This document shows positions 8,110 to 27,759 of a DNA stretch of 64,000 nucleotides, one piece after another. Each line of letters begins with the position of its first letter. The stretch's first letter is position 1. The notes under the pieces are model-generated. The model did not search any database and had not been told where the DNA came from. It worked only from the letters and a program-made list of their open reading frames with translations. The translations under genes and the position numbers were made by a program. The DNA is from Planctomycetota bacterium (GTDB lineage Bacteria > Planctomycetota > Phycisphaerae > Phycisphaerales > Phycisphaeraceae), in contig CP066225.1 of the NCBI GenBank assembly GCA_016350165.1, positions 1,054,001-1,118,000 of the forward strand, in the 5' to 3' direction.

Positions 8110-11100
8110 TTAGAAGCTGATCCTAACACCTGCATAGATGTTGCTCACGATAAAGTCATCCGGCGTAAACTCGGTGTTATACTGAACCGTAAAACTGATC
8201 GGTGCCTTGTGGCTGATGCCGATCAGGTTCACGCCGATCAGCCCCGAATCACGGCCGGTGCCGAGACCTGTGTAACTAAACGATTCACCACCTGCCGGCA
8301 TACCTACGTTGACTGTATCAATCGGATCAAGGTATTCATGTTCCCACGAACCAACCAACTCCGGCACAAACAGCATCTCTGAGGTGTCATACTCATACGT
8401 CGCTCTAAAACCAAGCCGGGTCACAAACGAGTTGCCGTTGAAGGCGCCCACATCAAGGTTCAGGTCTTCTGCACCCGTTTCACTGTGTGAACCGATCTGC
8501 AGGTTCACCCACTGCAACGCCAGCTGCGGGCCGATACCCCAATTGCCTTTCTTGAACTCGTAACCACCGGTCGCAAGCGTCTGCAGGTAAAAACCGGTTG
8601 GGTCCGACTCCGCGACACGGTCAACGCTGCCAAAACGGATACGCCTGTTGTTTTCATAGAAGTTAACGCCGCCGCCAAACAGCCCTGAGGCATAAAAACC
8701 ATCCTCGTTAAACCACGTCATGTACATGCCCGTGTTAATGCTGTTGAACGAGCTGGTGCCCAGGCCATTGTCCACCGTAATTCCGGTGTTCGAATAACCT
8801 AAAAAGGCACCCGCTGCTAGCGTATCCAAAACCCTGTAATCAACGCCCAGGGTCACACCACCGGTGTTGAATTCAAAACCCGCCTGGCTTTCCTGTGAAT
8901 CAAAATCGCCGAACGTGCCAAAACCATTTACCCATGCGCCCCAGACATCCTTACCAGTACCACTAAAGCGATTGGTCTCCTGCTGCTGCTCAAGCGTCTG
9001 CTGAGTTTGCATTGCTAAACCGATTGCAACCTCGGGATCGGCGGATTCTTCAGCAGTGGATGCTTGTGGTGTCTGAACTTGCAGGTTATTAGACCACAAC
9101 TGCGGCAGACCGTAACGCAATTCGTTGAGCCGGCCGTTGAAGTTGTTGTTCTGCACGTCGATGCCTTTGAACGTCGCTTGAGCCTGCGGAACAAGATAGT
9201 GCGGCACCAACTGATCGAATGCGGCAACCAACTGTGCATCCGTGAGTGTTTGCAGCTGGCTAATCACTGTCGCGATATCGCCTGTTGGATTGCTATCTGC
9301 AATTTGCGCAAAGGCTGCGGCCGCTGGGGCAAGATGAGGCTGCGTTACAACATCCGTAAACGGAACTTCAATCAATTCAATCGTAATGTCATTTGTGGTA
9401 TAAGTCGCTTCAACATTAAACGATCCTAAGTTGTCAACGATTGAACTGAATTCACCGTTTATGCCACCACCTGCTTCTAATATCATGAAGGTGTCACCTT
9501 CAGTTGGCGTGTAACCCGAAAGGCCGATGACGTTCAGCGTGCCATCAATATCTGCAGTGCCATCGACATCAATCAGGTCGTTACCGACACCTTTACCCGC
9601 TGTTGATTCGATCTCCATGTCATACACGCTGGTGCCGGTCAGTGTAAGATTGCCCATCATGCTGATGGTTCCGATGCTGTTGCCGGGTGAAATCGTGCCG
9701 GCGTTGGTGAAGTTGCCCGCAAAATAGCCCGAGCCACCGAACATCGCACCGCTGGCAACATTCATATTCGGACTGGCCATGTTGCCATTCACGATCAATG
9801 CACCCCCATTCACCGTGGTATCACCGGTATAGGTGTTGTCGCCGTCCAACGTCAAAGTGCCGATGCCTTGCTTGATTAAGTCGCCGGTCCCTGAAATTAC
9901 ACCTGCGAATTCTGTATTGTTCTCGTCGCCGACCGTGAGCGTGTTGTCCTGCATGCTAACATCACCGCCGGTAGAACCACCACCAGCCAAGGCGCCGATT
10001 GTTTCGTCATCATTGAGCTGCAACGTTGCACCATCAACATCAGCGAGTGTCACGGTGCTGCTGTCACCGATCGCATCACCACCACTCGCAATGACAGTAC
10101 CTTCATTGATATTTGTATCACCACTATAGGTATTTTGCCCATTAAGTGTCAGCGTGCTAATGCCTTCTTTGGTTAAGCCGCCTGTACCGCTGATCACACT
10201 GTCAAGATTCAGGCTGTAGTCGCCAGTAACGATTAAGTCACCATTCAATGTGATGTCGTTAGCAATCGCGATGCCATCGGAACCAGCGCTTAATGATGTT
10301 GTAAAATCTGGATGTATTGTCTCTTCCACTGTGAACGTGCCAGTACCGAGGGCGTTATTGTGGCCGACCGTGAGTGTACCAATACTAAGCGTCGTACCGC
10401 CGCTATATGTATTGTCACCATTCAGCACAAGCACATCACTGTTAGCACCAGATTCTCGAACTAGTGCGCCCTCGCCACTAAGCACACCGTTAAATGTCGT
10501 GTCTATACCAGTATTAACAACCCAGTTTGCATTCAATACCATATCGTTATCAAACGTATCGGTACCGCTAGAGTAGAAGTATGAAGTGTCATTGATTGTT
10601 ATTGTGCCGGTACCGAGCGTGCCTGTGTTGACGGAGTTGAGTGTGGCACCATTCAGAGTAATCCCGCCGGAGAAACTGTTGGCACTTGAACTCAGATACA
10701 CACTCCCACTATTGATGACAATACTGCCACCATTGCCACTATTATCGTCAGTGATAGTACCATGGAAGTTTATCCTGCCATCGATCGTCATGACAGAATT
10801 ACCTAAATCAACATCATTATCAATCTCAACGTAGGGATTTGTAGGATCTGGAAATTCTCCCGCTTCAAGTGTCGCATCACCAGTAAATACCACTGTGCCG
10901 GTACCAAGCCGATTGCTATTCAAGCCACTAGCAGTCGTGCCCTTAAGTACGATGGTACCCCCAGCAATCGTCGTGTCACCGCTGTAATCGTTATAGCCGT
11001 TCAGCGTCAGCGTGCCGTCGCCCTCTTTGGTGAATGAACTGTCGCCGCTGATATTGCCGTTGAGTGTCAAGTCGTTGTCGCCGGTAACGGTAAAGTCCTC

Positions 11101-14100: not shown

Positions 14101-17100
14101 GGTCGTATCGTCATCGCCACTAACCGTAAGCGTGTTGTCTTGAAGAATGAGTTCGCCGCCTGTGGAACCACCGCCGGTCAGCCCGCCGATCGTCTCGTCA
14201 TCATTGAGCTGCAACGTCGCACCGGCAACGTCAGCAATGGTCACAAGGCTACTATCACCAATCGCACCACCACCTTCAGCGATAACTGTGCCTGCATTAA
14301 TCGTCGTACCACCCAAATACTCGTTACCTCTGTCACTTGCATTGCTCAGCGTCAGCGTACTACTGCCATTTTTTATTAAACCCTTATTACCGTAAACTAA
14401 GCCAGTAAAGGTCAAATTATTGTCACCGGTTATGGTCAAGTCGTGACTAGCTAGGGCGATCACGTTCGCAAGCGAAATACCGCCAGCACCCGCAGATAAT
14501 TTCGGTGTAACACTGAAACCAACTGAGTACGATCTAACCGTGCCAGTACCTAATGCATTATTGTTGTTGACTTGGAGGGTGCCGTCTGAAATCGATACCG
14601 TGCCACTATACCCCGAATTGTCACCGCTGAGTGCTAGTGTCATGTTTTGTTCTTTTACTAATTCCCCAGAACCAGTGAAGTTACCACTAAGGGTCACGCT
14701 ACTACTTCCTGCTATCGAAGTGTACGCGCCCAGATCAAAGTCGTTATCAAACTCTACGCCGCTTCCAACATTAAAGAATATACCTCCTTTTTGCTTTGTT
14801 ATTACGGTGCTATCACCAAGTGCAGTAGCGGAGCGGACCCGAAGCGTAGCCGGAACATTACCATAGCCACGGTTCAGGACAAAATTGCCAGAGAAGCCTG
14901 TATTATCGCCGGAAATGTCTACTACGATAACATTATCAATCGAAATTTCGCCTGTACCAGAAATATCACCATGGAGATACGTAGTCTTCCAGCCTGTAAT
15001 GGCCATGACACTATCATCTTTCAGATTGATGTCATTCTGAATATTGGCTGAATTTCCTGACTCCCATTCTCCTGAGTCAATTGTCGCATCATCTTCAAAT
15101 ATCACGGTGCCGTAGTCGCCGTTGACGTCGGTACCGCCGAATGCAATGTCACTACCACTGATATCAACTGTGCCACCATAAATCGTCGTGTCGCCGGTGT
15201 ATGTGTTGGCGCCGCTGAGTGTCAGCGTGTTGCTGCCTTCTTTTACTAAGCTGCCCGTGCCGGAAATCACATCCGCATAGGTAATATCATCCGAACGATT
15301 GAATGCAAGTGTGCCATTATTAACGATATCACCCTGAATCGAACCGGTCGTGCCACCGTCGCCGATCTGCAGCGTTCCCGCAGAGATCGTCGTGCCGCCG
15401 GTGTATGTGTTGTCACCGCTGAGTACAAGTGTGCCAGCGCCGGTTTTTGCTAATGCGCCGCTGCTGGTACCGTCGCTAATCACATCCGCGTAGGTTAGAT
15501 CATCCGAACGATTGAATGCAAGTGTGCCACTATTAACGATATCACCCTGAATCGAACCTGTCGTACCACCGTCACCGATCTGCAACGTTCCCGCAGAGAT
15601 CGTCGTACCGCCGCTGTAGGTATTGGTGCCGCTCAGCGTCAGCGTACCAGCACCTTCTTTGGTTAATGCGCCGGTGCCATCAATAACGCCACTCAGGGTC
15701 AAATTATTGTCGCCAGATACGGTTAAGTCGTCATTCAAAGTGAAGACGTTATCAAGCGAAACGCTACTGATGCCCGCAGTTAATCCTGATGCGCCTGCCA
15801 CGGTGACGGAGCCGGTGCCGAACGCGTCGTCGCTGTTGACTGTGGTCACGCCACCATTCAGCGTGGTGCCGCCGGTAAAAGTATTCGTGCCGGTGAGTGC
15901 CAGCGTGCCGGTTCCTGTTATCGCTAATGACCCCGTGCCTGAAATCACACCATCAAAGGTCGTATCATCATCGCCACCAATCGTGAGGGTGTTGTCCTGA
16001 AGAATAAGTTCGCCACCTGTGGAGCCACCGCCGGTCAGCCCGCCGATCGTCTCATCCCCATTAAGCTGCAACGTTGCACCAGCAACATCAGCAATAACCA
16101 CGAGGCTACTATCACCGATCGCATTGCCGCCTTCAGCGATGATCGTACCAGCATTAATTGTCGTGTCGCCGGTATATGTGTTTGTGCCGCTGAGCGTTAA
16201 CGTGCTGCTGTCTTCTTTAATTAAGCCGCGTGCGCCAGCGCCGCCAATCGAACCGGCAAGCGTTAAATCATTGGTGCCGGATATCGTCAAATCGACATCC
16301 ACCAAAGTGACGTCATTCTCAAGCGAAATATTGTTGACGCCGGCAGTTAATATCGGTGCATCAGCAAAAGATACGAATTTATCCACAATGAGTGTGCCCG
16401 TACCAAGTGCGTTATTGTGGCTGACTTGGATGGCACCTTCGCCAAGCTGCGTATCGCCACTAAACGATGAGTTGTCGTGGGTGAGCGTCAGTGTGGGTGT
16501 ACCTGTTTTTAATAATTTTCCATCACCGCTGATCTCACCACTCAAGGTCTGTGATTTGGTAGGTAGATAAACCGTTGTCGTCGCATTCAATATGAAGTCG
16601 TTACTAAAATCCTTAGATACTCCATTAATGGTAATTCCAGAAGCTCCCGTTATCGTTACCGCGCCGGTACCGAATGCGGTATCGGTGTGAACACCAATAT
16701 CACTACCAGCCATAGTAATACCGCCGGCAAATGAGTTATTGCCGAATAAGAAGCAATTCACGTAATTGCCCAAATAAATACTGCCTTCACCGGTAATATC
16801 ACCATTAAGATACAGATTATTACTGCCGGTCGTGGACAAAACTTGACCATCATTCAGATTGATAGCATTATCAATAATACGGGAGCTTTCGGTCCAAGGT
16901 CCTATATCAAGTAGCGTATCACCTGCAACTGTGATTGCGCCGGCGCTATCGCCGAATGCGTTATCGGTGTTTATATCGATTGTGCCGCCGGAAAGTGTCG
17001 TGCCACCTCCATACGTATTGCTGCTGTTCAGCACAAGCGTACCGTCACCTGTTTTGGTTAATGAACCCGTGTCGCCACTGATGATGCCGCTGATTTCGGT

Positions 17101-24160: not shown

Positions 24161-24850
24161 TCACCTTGAAACCGTAGGCAGATCACGTGTCATCTTCTGA
24201 ATCACTTTCCGCGCCAGTTTCGCCTGCTCCGGCTCAAGTGCATTACCAACTAACGCTCCTGCCGCAACGCCTGCCCCTGCACCAATAGCAGTCCCCGTAT
24301 TCTTGTCATCAAACTGACTGCCCAGGACAGCCCCTGATAAACCGCCAACCAGCCCGCCGCCGATTGTGCCTAGTCCCTTCTTCAAACTCCCATTGCCTTC
24401 ACCCATCCAAAGCAGCTCCCCACTGCTCACATCACTCATCTTTGCCGTCATACTGATCCGCTCCCCAAACTCGCTTACATTCACAACTAACATGGTGTTA
24501 ATGTTCTTAATCCGCAGTTTTTCCTTGCGGCCAGACGTGATCCCTGAACTCTGCTGAAAATCAACCTCTGTAATCACTTCTTCCAAGTTCGCTCGATCTG
24601 CGATCGAATACCCCTTCTTCATCAGTTGCATCCCAAACAGATCCGCCACCTCCTTGCGCTGCATCTTACCGAGCACATCACTCCCATCCGACACCACCAC
24701 GCCAATCCGACCCAGCGCATCGAAGCGCATATTAGAACTCGTAAAACTCTCACCGCTCGCGCATCCAAACATCAATGCGCAAACGGCAAGTAGTGCCAAC
24801 AAGGGCGGCCAAGTAAACCGTACATCGTCAGATATATCATTAATTTTCAT
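24161..24850 (-). CDS. lipoprotein with glycine-zipper domain, CsgG-operon partner
   Basis: About 229 residues. A lipobox (LMFGC, Cys near residue 30) follows a hydrophobic segment, so it is a lipoprotein. Residues 40-135 resemble the CsgG/GNA1162-type alpha-beta domain (RIGVVVSD, KGYSIADRANLEEVITEVD). The C-terminus is a glycine zipper (GTIGGGLVGGLSGAVLG and GTAIGAGAGVAAGALVG), a motif that packs membrane helices and is common in outer-membrane lipoproteins. The start at 24850 is chosen over 24889 because of AGGAG about ten bases ahead. First gene of the operon 24850-22156; its leader holds the structured RNA at 24967-25190. Confidence 0.7.
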   Translation of the reverse strand: MKINDISDDVRFTWPPLLALLAVCALMFGCASGESFTSSNMRFDALGRIGVVVSDGSDVLGKMQRKEVADLFGMQLMKKGYSIADRANLEEVITEVDFQQSSGITSGRKEKLRIKNINTMLVVNVSEFGERISMTAKMSDVSSGELLWMGEGNGSLKKGLGTIGGGLVGGLSGAVLGSQFDDKNTGTAIGAGAGVAAGALVGNALEPEQAKLARKVIQKMTRDLPTVSR

Positions 24851-24966: not shown

Positions 24967-25190
24967 AAAAAGGGCGAACGTCGCTGGTTCCATTTCACAC
25001 AGAGGCTGTAGCAAGCCTAGCAATGAAAATGGTCAACGAGTCCGCCCATAACTGAGGCGAACCCGAGTGCCATACCTCATTGCTTGTGAAATTGCTACAT
25101 TCCTGTGTGAGGTTCTGTTACTCGAGATCGTTAGATCTTCGCTATATTGTTGCAGCCCTTCGCTCGGCTGCCATGTTTCTGTTTCCTTTC
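24967..25190 (-). ncRNA. rod-shaped structured RNA / leader of the CsgG-like operon
   Basis: Three consecutive perfect 8-bp helices stack into one long hairpin: 24995-25002 with 25103-25110, 25007-25014 with 25092-25099, and 25019-25026 with 25077-25084, with short internal loops. On the minus strand the RNA ends GTTCGCCC followed by TTTTT (24967-24971). GGGCGGAC (25040-25047) can instead pair with that GTTCGCCC, so a terminator helix competes with the rod. A 10-codon frame (25174-25142) with AAAGGAAA ahead lies in the 5' part. The layout fits a 6S-like RNA or a riboswitch/attenuator for the operon starting at 24850; I cannot name a known family. AGGCT / AGCCT inside the 3' arm can also form a small side hairpin. 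Confidence 0.45.
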
Positions 25191-25202
25191 AATCAACAGA
25201 TA

Positions 25203-25248
25203 ATGTTGACACTTAATAATTACACCGCTTTGGAATTCTTGTCAACAT
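25203..25248. promoter_or_regulatory. inverted TTGACA pair upstream of the structured RNA
   Basis: ATGTTGACA (25203-25211) and TGTCAACAT (25240-25248) are a perfect 9-bp inverted repeat 28 bases apart. Read on the minus strand the distal half gives a consensus -35 (TTGACA, 25245-25240) with AATTAT at 18 bases as a possible -10, placing a start near the structured RNA. The symmetry also suits a regulator dimer. Confidence 0.4.
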
Positions 25249-25880: not shown

Positions 25881-26114
25881 ATGAAAAGATCAAGAAAACA
25901 AACGAATTGGATTCCACCGCAAGAGCCTGACGAGCAGTCGCTCTTAATCGATGCTAACACCGTTGCCAAACAACTGGGCTGCTGTACGAAAACGGTATAC
26001 AAGCTTGCGAAAGACCACAAGATCAAATCACGCCCCATTGGCCGCCTGCGCAAATTCAAGCAGCAGGATGTTCTGGATTTTATTGAAAACTCTCAAGGAG
26101 AAACAGATGAGTGA
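25881..26114 (+). CDS. excisionase-type helix-turn-helix protein
   Basis: A 77-residue protein of the MerR-like excisionase (HTH_17) family: LLIDANTVAKQLGCCTKTVYKLAKDHKIKSRPIGRLRKFKQQDVLDFIE shows the helix-turn-helix followed by a short wing. Such proteins are recombination directionality factors or small regulators on integrative elements. GAGGAGATCT precedes the ATG. Its stop overlaps the start of the next gene by eight bases (ATGAGTGA), so the two are translationally coupled. With the recombinase at 28163 it forms the integration module of the element. Confidence 0.8.
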   Translation: MKRSRKQTNWIPPQEPDEQSLLIDANTVAKQLGCCTKTVYKLAKDHKIKSRPIGRLRKFKQQDVLDFIENSQGETDE

Positions 26115-27759
26115 CCACACACACAAGCGAACAAAAAAGAAAACTCACACTTCGAATCACGCAAATTCGAAGCATTCAAAAATCGTACGCACAAAAAAGA
26201 AAGGCAAAAAGAAACAGATGCCAAAACAAAGCAAAGTTGTAAGAAGGACCAAGAAACGTTTCGCCACGCGTCTCCCAGACCCCCAACCAGTCCCGATCAT
26301 GGAGCCGATCAGTCAGGGATTGCAAACAGATATTCTGCCTGAATTTGCACAGGATTTCTGTCACATGATCGCGGACACGCAGGAAGTCCCGATCCACTCG
26401 CCCGTCATGGTTTGCATGGCAGCACTTGCAAGCCTTGTTCAAGGCCATTTTGTAGCACACGTCAGAAGAGGCTTTAAAGAACAGCTTCCACTCTACACCG
26501 CTGTGCTACTAGGTAGCGGTGAAAAAAAGAGTCCCACCCAGAACGCCATCCTTGAGCCGCTACGTGAGATCGACAAAGAAGTGCAAAGAGCCTGGGAGGC
26601 CAAATTCGATGAGGTTGAATCACACAAGGCTGTCATCGAGCAGCAGATCAAGATAGTTCAGCGTAAAATCCCAAGAAACGCGGGCAAAGCTGAACAAAAG
26701 CGTTTCGCAGATGAAATCTGCAAGCTCAGGCAGTCAATGATTGTGCATCCCAGGACGCAGCTTATCGCCGAAGATTTCACCGAGGCCGCACTGGTCGACG
26801 TCTTGAAAGACTCCGACGAAAGAATCTTGGTGGCCAGTGACGAGGGCGCCCTGCTTGAGAATCTCAAGGGGCGGTTCGGTAACAAATCCGGTGAATACTC
26901 ACTCTTCCTCAAAGCGCATGATGGCACTGAGTTCAAATTTGATCGCCGCAGTGACAATCGGCGTATCACCCTTGAAACCCCGCTGATTTCTACCACCATC
27001 GCCTTCCAGCCTGAAGTCATGGCCGCAACCACGCAAACAGAACGCATACTGGGTAACGGTCTGGTGCAACGTTTTCTGTGGACCAAACCAGAACCAAAAG
27101 CCGGGCGCAGAGAATTCAACAGCATCCCTTTCTGTTCTGAAACACACAGCGTCTACTGCGACGCAATAACCCAAATCTACAAAACGCTTGAACGCAATAC
27201 CCAATGCCACCAAGTTCGTTTAACGACCGACGCTCAAATAGAGCATGCAGTTTTTGAGCAGTACATCGACCGTCTCATGCGTCCCGCATTTGTGACAGGC
27301 CACGGCGCTATAAAAGGCTGGTGCAACAAACTGCCAGGCCAAGCAGTCCGCATTGCCACGATCAAAGTGATCTGCGAACACATCGTCAGTTTATCTGAGT
27401 TCGACCCCGAAAGCATCGTCGTTGATGCTTCAGACATGAAAGCTGCAATCCAATTTTGTAAGCAGCTAATTCCTCATGCGCGTGACGCCATCTCACTGCT
27501 TGAGGGTGGATCAACAACTGCATTGCAGAAAGTGCTTGATCATTTTAGTGCAAACGGCTGGCCAACCGGGGATTTCTGCAGTAACCACATCTTTAAGAAA
27601 GTACGTTCAAAATCAGTCAAGAGGTGCAGTAATTTAGACCCTGTTATACAGATACTGCTGGAGCACAAGTATCTGTTCAAAACAAACCCCTCTGGCAAGA
27701 GTGGTCCAACCACCCAGTACTATCGTGCCAATGAATGCTTGCCCCCAGCGATGGAGTAA
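26107..27759 (+). CDS. DUF3987 (YfjI-type) protein, element replication candidate
   Basis: About 550 residues. The first 60 are very basic (runs of K, R, H and T), likely a nucleic-acid-binding tail. The DUF3987 domain follows (PVMVCMAALASLVQGHFVAH; LLGSGEKKSPTQNAILEPL with a P-loop-like turn; ILVASDEGALLENLKGRFG; ISTTIAFQPEV). DUF3987 proteins occur in phages, satellites and integrative elements, often next to primases and in place of a replicative helicase; a DNA-replication role is inferred, not shown. Start 26107 (AAGGAGAAACAG ahead) is chosen over a longer frame opening at 25951 that overlaps the excisionase gene. A coiled stretch (residues about 160-215) splits the domain. Confidence 0.75.
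   Translation: MSDHTHKRTKKKTHTSNHANSKHSKIVRTKKKGKKKQMPKQSKVVRRTKKRFATRLPDPQPVPIMEPISQGLQTDILPEFAQDFCHMIADTQEVPIHSPVMVCMAALASLVQGHFVAHVRRGFKEQLPLYTAVLLGSGEKKSPTQNAILEPLREIDKEVQRAWEAKFDEVESHKAVIEQQIKIVQRKIPRNAGKAEQKRFADEICKLRQSMIVHPRTQLIAEDFTEAALVDVLKDSDERILVASDEGALLENLKGRFGNKSGEYSLFLKAHDGTEFKFDRRSDNRRITLETPLISTTIAFQPEVMAATTQTERILGNGLVQRFLWTKPEPKAGRREFNSIPFCSETHSVYCDAITQIYKTLERNTQCHQVRLTTDAQIEHAVFEQYIDRLMRPAFVTGHGAIKGWCNKLPGQAVRIATIKVICEHIVSLSEFDPESIVVDASDMKAAIQFCKQLIPHARDAISLLEGGSTTALQKVLDHFSANGWPTGDFCSNHIFKKVRSKSVKRCSNLDPVIQILLEHKYLFKTNPSGKSGPTTQYYRANECLPPAME

Follow-up and report, generated by a model that had tools for sequence, protein, structure and literature searches.

Transcription attenuators and riboswitches, such as those of the trp and ilv type and the T-box, are the systems closest to the RNA considered here: they too are placed in a leader, with one strand common to two exclusive helices, one of these right before a U-run, and the ribosome-controlled attenuators among them have a short leader frame, which the short frames met here may resemble. 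The DUF805 (RF03081) and DUF805b (RF02914) RNAs are likewise leader RNAs before varied accessory genes, on some of the same Bacteroidetes contigs as our RNA; the DUF805 RNA was reportedly described in a paper of 2017. 6S RNA (RF00013) shares the shape of a rod with internal loops, and the integron attC site that of a conserved imperfect palindrome lying before or between mobile genes. To our knowledge, few known regulators accompany unrelated accessory genes.

As a case study, we considered a stretch in a window of 64,000 nucleotides (the whole DNA analysed) from a planctomycete genome, G000, for which a rod-shaped RNA with a competing terminator had been proposed. It is near certain that this stretch holds a conserved RNA structure belonging to a structured RNA family. 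The structure stands before unrelated accessory genes in two bacterial phyla, and it probably controls whether transcription reaches the gene downstream.

The leader RNA of the window and its second copy

The RNA is read from the minus strand, where it lies between a probable promoter (25245-25216) and the ATG of a lipoprotein gene at 24850. In folding, the minus-strand leader (371 nt) beats 100/100 dinucleotide shuffles (z -4.87), and the 282 nt of the originally noted stretch, in the plus-strand reading, give a z of -3.56, with 0/200 shuffles as good. The three perfect 8-bp helices of the original prediction are all present on the minus strand (P1, P2 and P3 below), and so is its competing helix, as GGGCGGAC (25040-25047) can pair with GTTCGCCC (24972-24979), immediately before a T5 run. 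The features are as follows, all on the minus strand:

25216-25245, minus: probable sigma-70-type promoter of the leader (TTGACA, spacer 18, AATTAT), 10/12 consensus matches, identical in the second copy
25142-25174, minus: 10-codon leader frame MAAERRAATI (second copy MAAKRRAATT) over a GC-rich hairpin (25152-25171), seen in both copies, short frames being similarly placed in many members
25120-25126, minus: P0a, an early 5' strand that can pair with P0b (P0 pairing stronger matched than permuted in 33 members)
25103-25110 (5' strand) and 24995-25002 (3' strand), minus: P1, basal rod helix, from repeat/helix search, second copy and Planctomycetota alignment
25007-25014/25092-25099, minus: P2, middle helix, perfect 8 bp, from inverted-repeat search
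25088-25103, minus: L hairpin, GGAA[UGUAGCAA]UUUC, its loop being the P2 5' strand (permutation test over members)
25077-25084 (5' strand) and 25019-25026 (3' strand), minus: P3, from inverted-repeat search and Planctomycetota alignment
25062-25068, minus: P0b, partner of P0a (same permutation test)
25055-25065, minus: strand A of the apical hairpin (CGGGUUCGCCU), from folding and permutation test
25037-25047, minus: strand B of the apical hairpin (GGGCGGACUCG), common to A:B and B:C (permutation test and member comparison)
25003-25018, minus: R hairpin, AGGC[UUGCUACA]GCCU, its loop being the P2 3' strand; the R stem covaries
24972-24979, minus: strand C (GUUCGCCC), near-copy of part of A and alternative partner for B (permutation test and member comparison)
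24967-24971, minus: U-run directly behind C, from the sequence and the T count behind C in members
24161-24850, minus: first gene behind the leader, a lipoprotein with a glycine zipper and weak CsgG/GNA1162 likeness (protein comparison)

The lipoprotein gene is followed by a CsgG-like gene and then by a membrane-protein gene without Pfam match, and this operon adjoins an integrase and tRNA-Ile. The same genome carries a second leader copy (C1:2783388-2783673, 89% identical over 286 bases), which precedes a paralogous lipoprotein gene that is frameshifted there. The leader is more similar between the two copies (89.5%, 248/277) than the gene (73.0%, 491/673). Three P1 and two P2 pairs are altered on both sides with pairing kept, and the apical 66 bases or so differ by one substitution. 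Open frames cross the rod in some GC-rich relatives, yet we reject a protein-coding rod because a 1-nt gap separates the two copies inside the rod and it is pairs, not codons, that they conserve.

Near each copy, at a distance of a few kilobases, is a gene for a tyrosine integrase, and this gene ends in one case at tRNA-Ile (the window) and in the other at tRNA-Tyr (the second copy). The second integrase matches Phage_integrase just below the cut-off and SAM-like domains above it; direct repeats of the tRNA ends of both islands were not found in the sequence examined around them. In both islands a DUF3987 protein is encoded between leader and integrase (window 25951-27759; L003 11223-12935), an arrangement that resembles a small replicating or satellite-type element. 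The island of the frameshifted lipoprotein (G000:C1:2782599-2783275 and L003 9873-10562) also carries an NrtR-type NUDIX regulator nearby and, at L003 5051-6019, what we take to be an ADP-ribosylglycohydrolase-like frame.

The promoter hexamers are TTGACA at 25240-25245 and a second one ending at 25216. That the leader has its own probable promoter, as had been proposed, is supported by its identity in the second copy and by the clear homology of the two copies, which begins at the -35 hexamer; promoter-like sites between 24000 and 26000 numbered 2 in a consensus scan, against 3.8 in shuffles, and were thus not above chance. A simple terminator scan of the minus strand in the same interval found no terminator-like site. 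The symmetric TTGACA pair pointed out earlier is indeed present as a 9-nt inverted repeat (25203-25211/25240-25248). The second copy alters its right half (GTGTCAACAT to GGTGAACGT) and leaves TTGACAAGAAT and AAAGCGGTGTAATTATTAAG identical, so that conservation extends to the -35 and the symmetry probably arose by chance; an operator at this pair was rejected, as the partner half differs in the second copy. The 10-codon frame that had also been noticed is found at its place, and its length is kept in the second copy with three codons altered.

An RNA family in two phyla

After removal of duplicates, the searches with covariance models and with one DNA pattern left 34 distinct members, 20 in Planctomycetota and 14 in Bacteroidota, nine of the latter being in one genome (G978), before nine different genes. 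Model R1, made from the two window-genome copies, matched 2/301 genomes of the order and 4/397 of the class (own genome included). A second model, R2, matched 7/392 genomes in the phylum, 2/26 in the family of G348 (one too weak to count), 1/62 in the order of G803 and 8/17 in the order of G830, where there are up to three copies per genome and where one match (L032) was judged spurious. The DNA pattern was that of the P2 and R strands, for part of which the members that it found were selected, and it hit 19 contigs (12 Planctomycetota, 6 Bacteroidetes according to their titles and 1 Mycolicibacterium); R2 matched 14/19 of these, including the Bacteroidetes loci L041 and L045. Model R3, built on four Bacteroidetes members, matches 6/6 source genomes and the nine divergent copies in G978. 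Cross-tests tie the two sets together: R3 finds 14/20 Planctomycetota loci, together with L041 and L045, at E values up to 1.9e-4 in 95 kb, the window copy not being matched, and R2 finds 4/12 Bacteroidetes loci at E values up to 1e-8. Four kinds of match were excluded, namely G433 as chance (E 0.07), L032 as an inverted repeat, L051 (the Mycolicibacterium contig) because R2 does not match it, and antisense matches of members as chance or artefact. The window leader had no blastn match in 50 other genomes of the family or in plasmids or phages, and blastn with the L061 leader found none either; likewise, no match was returned by the window-derived pattern in genome contigs or by a degenerate pattern and a lipoprotein search in viral contigs. 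In L028, L029 and L033, from three genera, some 350 noncoding bases from the promoter to the ribosome site of the gene are almost or fully identical, and the lipoprotein gene has diverged.

By its own terms the original prediction would have been refuted by an absence of covariation in relatives, and covariation is found in both groups. Among the 20 Planctomycetota members, 91.1% of cells are paired and 42/48 rod pairs show two-sided change, with a covariation score of 0.625 against 0.181 for shuffled and at most 0.086 for slid versions, in which 37-44% of cells are paired; these counts were taken from alignment A13 because A7 still includes L032 and one antisense row. Among 12 Bacteroidetes members the values are 98.0% of cells, 25/35 pairs and a score of 0.642, against 0.181 shuffled and at most 0.081 slid. 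Alignments A12 and A13 were fitted to the rod. Together with the compensatory changes in the second copy, which carry the three helices beyond chance, this confirms, as far as sequence comparison goes, the predicted rod of P1, P2, P3 and apical A:B.

The two strands of P2 also carry each a small stem of their own, L (for instance GAAA..UUUC) and R (for instance GGCUC..GAGCC). In an alignment that was not fitted to R, all cells of the R stem are paired and 3/6 pairs show two-sided change, and its permutation test gave 0/5000. The L stem gave 2/5000 over all members and 602/5000 in Bacteroidota, the latter not significant, and P0 gave 0/5000 over all, 37 in Planctomycetota and 126 in Bacteroidota. 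By these comparisons the R stem is well supported, L more weakly and P0 to an intermediate degree, and the covariation is compatible with L and R either kissing alongside P2 or alternating with the rod.

In the 90 nt that precede the modelled RNA, 10/34 members have an ATG with a stop directly after it (shuffled mean 3.2) and 15/34 an ATG with at most one codon before the stop (shuffled mean 5.6), 0/500 shuffles being as high in either case. For Planctomycetota alone, an ATG-stop with no codon between is found in 2/20, a value reached in 47/500 shuffles, and for Bacteroidota alone the count with up to three codons was reached in 54/500. Shared ancestry contributes to this recurrence, since a single genome supplies six of the eight Bacteroidota cases. 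Measured from the model start, the ATGs cluster at upstream distances of 18-29 nt in Bacteroidota and 48-65 nt in Planctomycetota, smaller clusters lie further out, and six members have no ATG in these 90 nt. The recurrence of a very short upstream frame is suggestive at the sequence level, as is the wider meaning that it would lend to the 10-codon frame of the window.

All nine copies in G978 are followed, 18-271 nt behind, by an ATG frame of at least 60 amino acids, and most of 28 loci examined have a plausible co-directional gene 3-221 nt behind, the shortest distance being that of L041; L035, L037, L039 and L046 offer too little DNA or no convincing gene. Pfam-matched genes behind the leader encode Hsp70, LytTR (two), ankyrin repeats, a PD-(D/E)XK nuclease, a Mutator transposase, a zinc ribbon, an N6-methylase with HsdR N-terminus and DnaJ domains (one above and one below cut-off), and no common pathway, which might have pointed to a small-molecule ligand, was found among the genes examined. 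The G063 copy (L014, about 8624-8786) lies between 24-nt tRNA-Cys repeats at L014 4808 and 15840, on a contig with an integrase (14443-16026) and tRNA-Cys (15842-15915), and the flanking repeats and the integrase place it inside an integrated element of about 11 kb.

Other RNAs were met on the same contigs. In L071 the known leader RNA DUF805b lies 34 nt behind our RNA, and DUF805/DUF805b matches stand before several different genes (L036 3840-3907, 5079-5146 and 5846-5913; L054 4288-4322; L071 528-562; L076 2698-2732), two of them just below or below cut-off. In G803, two c-di-GMP-I-GGC riboswitch matches lie upstream of the RNA (L021 1796-1934 and 2329-2388, minus strand; 52.4 and 40.1 bits, cut-off 59), and group II intron pieces occur on two RNA-carrying contigs (L046 4621-4742 and L076 208-283).

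Strand B, its two partners and what the leader may do

The members share the apical hairpin A:B and, before the U-run, an A-like strand C. Duplex energies were compared by permutation in 33 of the 34 members (L048 was dropped as near-identical to L054), with windows set by rule. The P2 strands were taken from the model alignments or chosen by eye, and in L008 and L045 strand C was positioned manually; L027, L034 and L075, in which the rule had put C in the wrong place, were kept. The B:C duplex has a mean of -15.2 kcal/mol when matched against -10.4 kcal/mol when permuted, with 0/5000 over all members and 0/5000 within each phylum, counts that are not probabilities since the members are related; for A:B the values are -16.3 and -11.0 kcal/mol. 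It therefore holds, for these predicted duplexes, that A:B and B:C are about equally strong and that each fits its own RNA better than the strands of other members. Five of seven unrelated window pairs used as controls gave 313 to 3302/5000 over all members, and the other two, A with C (34/5000) and P0a with C (67/5000), probably owe their low counts to a difference in composition between the phyla. In L074, A, B and C are altered together, and in L062, L071 and L076 A:B falls to G-U and B:C remains Watson-Crick. On alignment A12, the B:C helix shows two-sided variation in 1/5 pairs, and in the comparison that covered this helix and the R stem 4/500 and 46/500 shuffles reached two of the five measures.

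B:C reaches -12 kcal/mol in 30/33 members, the other three being those with misplaced C, and at least five T are found within 9 nt behind C in 32/33, the rule having misplaced C in three; the member with no U-run behind C is L045. A local hairpin D:C, a possible plain terminator, reaches -9 kcal/mol in 20/33 (in L008 it is underestimated because the rule shortened the D window); as it is weaker in 13/33, we rejected the local D:C terminator alone. When folding is restricted to nested pairs, the best fold is more stable than the B:C form in 33/33 members; the difference is 1.6 to 29.4 kcal/mol, or at most 27.5 if the three members with misplaced C are set aside. For B:C to form, the choice would thus have to be kinetic, or a partner would have to bind, or C would have to replace A at the rod tip in a pseudoknot.

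We infer from these features a cis-acting leader of accessory genes that would work as a bistable, riboswitch-like transcription attenuator, a reading to which we give about an even chance. As expected of attenuators and riboswitches, a conserved structure precedes a co-directional gene and, at the level of sequence, two mutually exclusive helices are found, one of them before a U-run; with B having two partners and the leader position, this supports the likeness to an attenuator or riboswitch seen by the original prediction. With A:B intact, RNA polymerase would read on into the gene, and if C took B, helix B:C and the U-run would end transcription. The winning state would be set during RNA synthesis, by early P0 pairing and by contact of the L and R loops. 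Possible signals are a small molecule, a protein, or a ribosome that occupies the very short leader frame. The operon so controlled in the window would be the CsgG-like lipoprotein operon next to the integrase and tRNA-Ile. A more specific version, which we hold to be improbable, is that promoter and leader form a portable module in two phyla that senses the state of translation, an AUG-stop or few-codon frame holding a ribosome near the 5' end, and that the held ribosome would decide between the rod (A:B) and the B:C terminator via the two loop-complementary hairpins. If true, this would be a class of regulator that switches acquired genes without a pathway-specific ligand.

Several other readings have to be weighed against the attenuator. 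The probable promoter and U-run belonging to the RNA itself, the D:C hairpin of the 20 members in which it is strong, the better conservation of leader than of gene and the absence of a common function among the genes behind would all suit a small RNA of about 200-250 nt that is transcribed independently, from its own promoter to an intrinsic terminator, and acts in trans, the next gene being a mere neighbour. Such an RNA would, however, hardly need a co-directional frame close behind it in most loci examined, at 3 nt in L041, nor would it account for B:C, which is nevertheless kept in the 13/33 members with weak D:C, or for many divergent copies per genome that stand each before another gene; we consider it unlikely, though deserving of real weight. 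The energetics lend themselves as well to a leader that binds a ligand or protein and acts on translation or mRNA stability instead of termination, with B:C in a compact pseudoknot alongside kissing L and R loops: B:C, R and P2, each of them supported, can coexist only if the fold is pseudoknotted or has kissing loops, and the stability of the rod is too great for strands simply to exchange. The U-run behind C in 32/33 members, best explained by termination, speaks against this reading, which seems to us rather unlikely.

A site acting as DNA, that is a folded single-strand recombination site of mobile gene cassettes resembling attC, would explain the patchy spread before unrelated genes, and the near-palindromic character revealed by antisense matches, the copies near integrases, the one inside the 24-nt-repeat element of G063 and the unit identical across three genera could be read in this sense. 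We find it very improbable, because changes to G-U on one side are among those seen in base pairs, because promoter, U-run and short frame indicate RNA, because no array of such sites was noticed, and because the queries used found no copy in phages, plasmids or viral contigs. To a diverged 6S RNA, which the rod shape, the roughly right size and the probable promoter might recall, we give almost no credence. The 6S likeness drawn originally has not stood up, since RF00013 matches neither the RNA nor any other place in the window genome and the family is patchy, absent from most relatives and multi-copy in others, before genes; Rfam scans and distribution alike thus reject 6S RNA. RF00013 does match elsewhere in 16/41 relatives searched, mostly below cut-off and in two cases over it. 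As a separate observation, the genus of G000 and G044 has no RF00013 match, and 6S RNA is diverged or missing there.

Comparison with known systems

In none of the 34 members does the RNA overlap a family of Rfam 15, in agreement with the original remark that no known class was recognised, and nothing in the literature, searched through the openings of abstracts, was recognised as this leader RNA; judged from these two sources, the family appears to be undescribed. It adds to the known RNAs a strongly supported structured family absent from Rfam 15, of unusual layout, in which the middle helix of a rod is made from two hairpin loops and the strand before the U-run repeats one arm of the apical hairpin. 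Its members are spread over two phyla, with up to nine divergent copies per genome, and precede genes such as those for Hsp70, J-domain, restriction-modification, LytTR, nuclease and lipoprotein products. Should the attenuator reading prove true, knowledge of the signal would allow direct tests of how a large number of uncharacterised island genes are controlled.

The DUF805 and DUF805b RNAs are much smaller (68 and 35 model positions) and of another structure; their models never overlap the leader RNA in the loci scanned and match elsewhere in L036, L054, L071, L072 and L076. Unlike 6S RNA, the present RNA has no match to the RF00013 model, and it is patchy, multi-copy and placed before genes. 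Compared with attC, the leader differs in having a promoter, a U-run and an internal alternative partner. From the known attenuators it differs in being without common pathway or Rfam match, in that about 60 nt, with the R hairpin between, separate B from C, and in that its C strand repeats an arm of the hairpin at the tip of a long rod.
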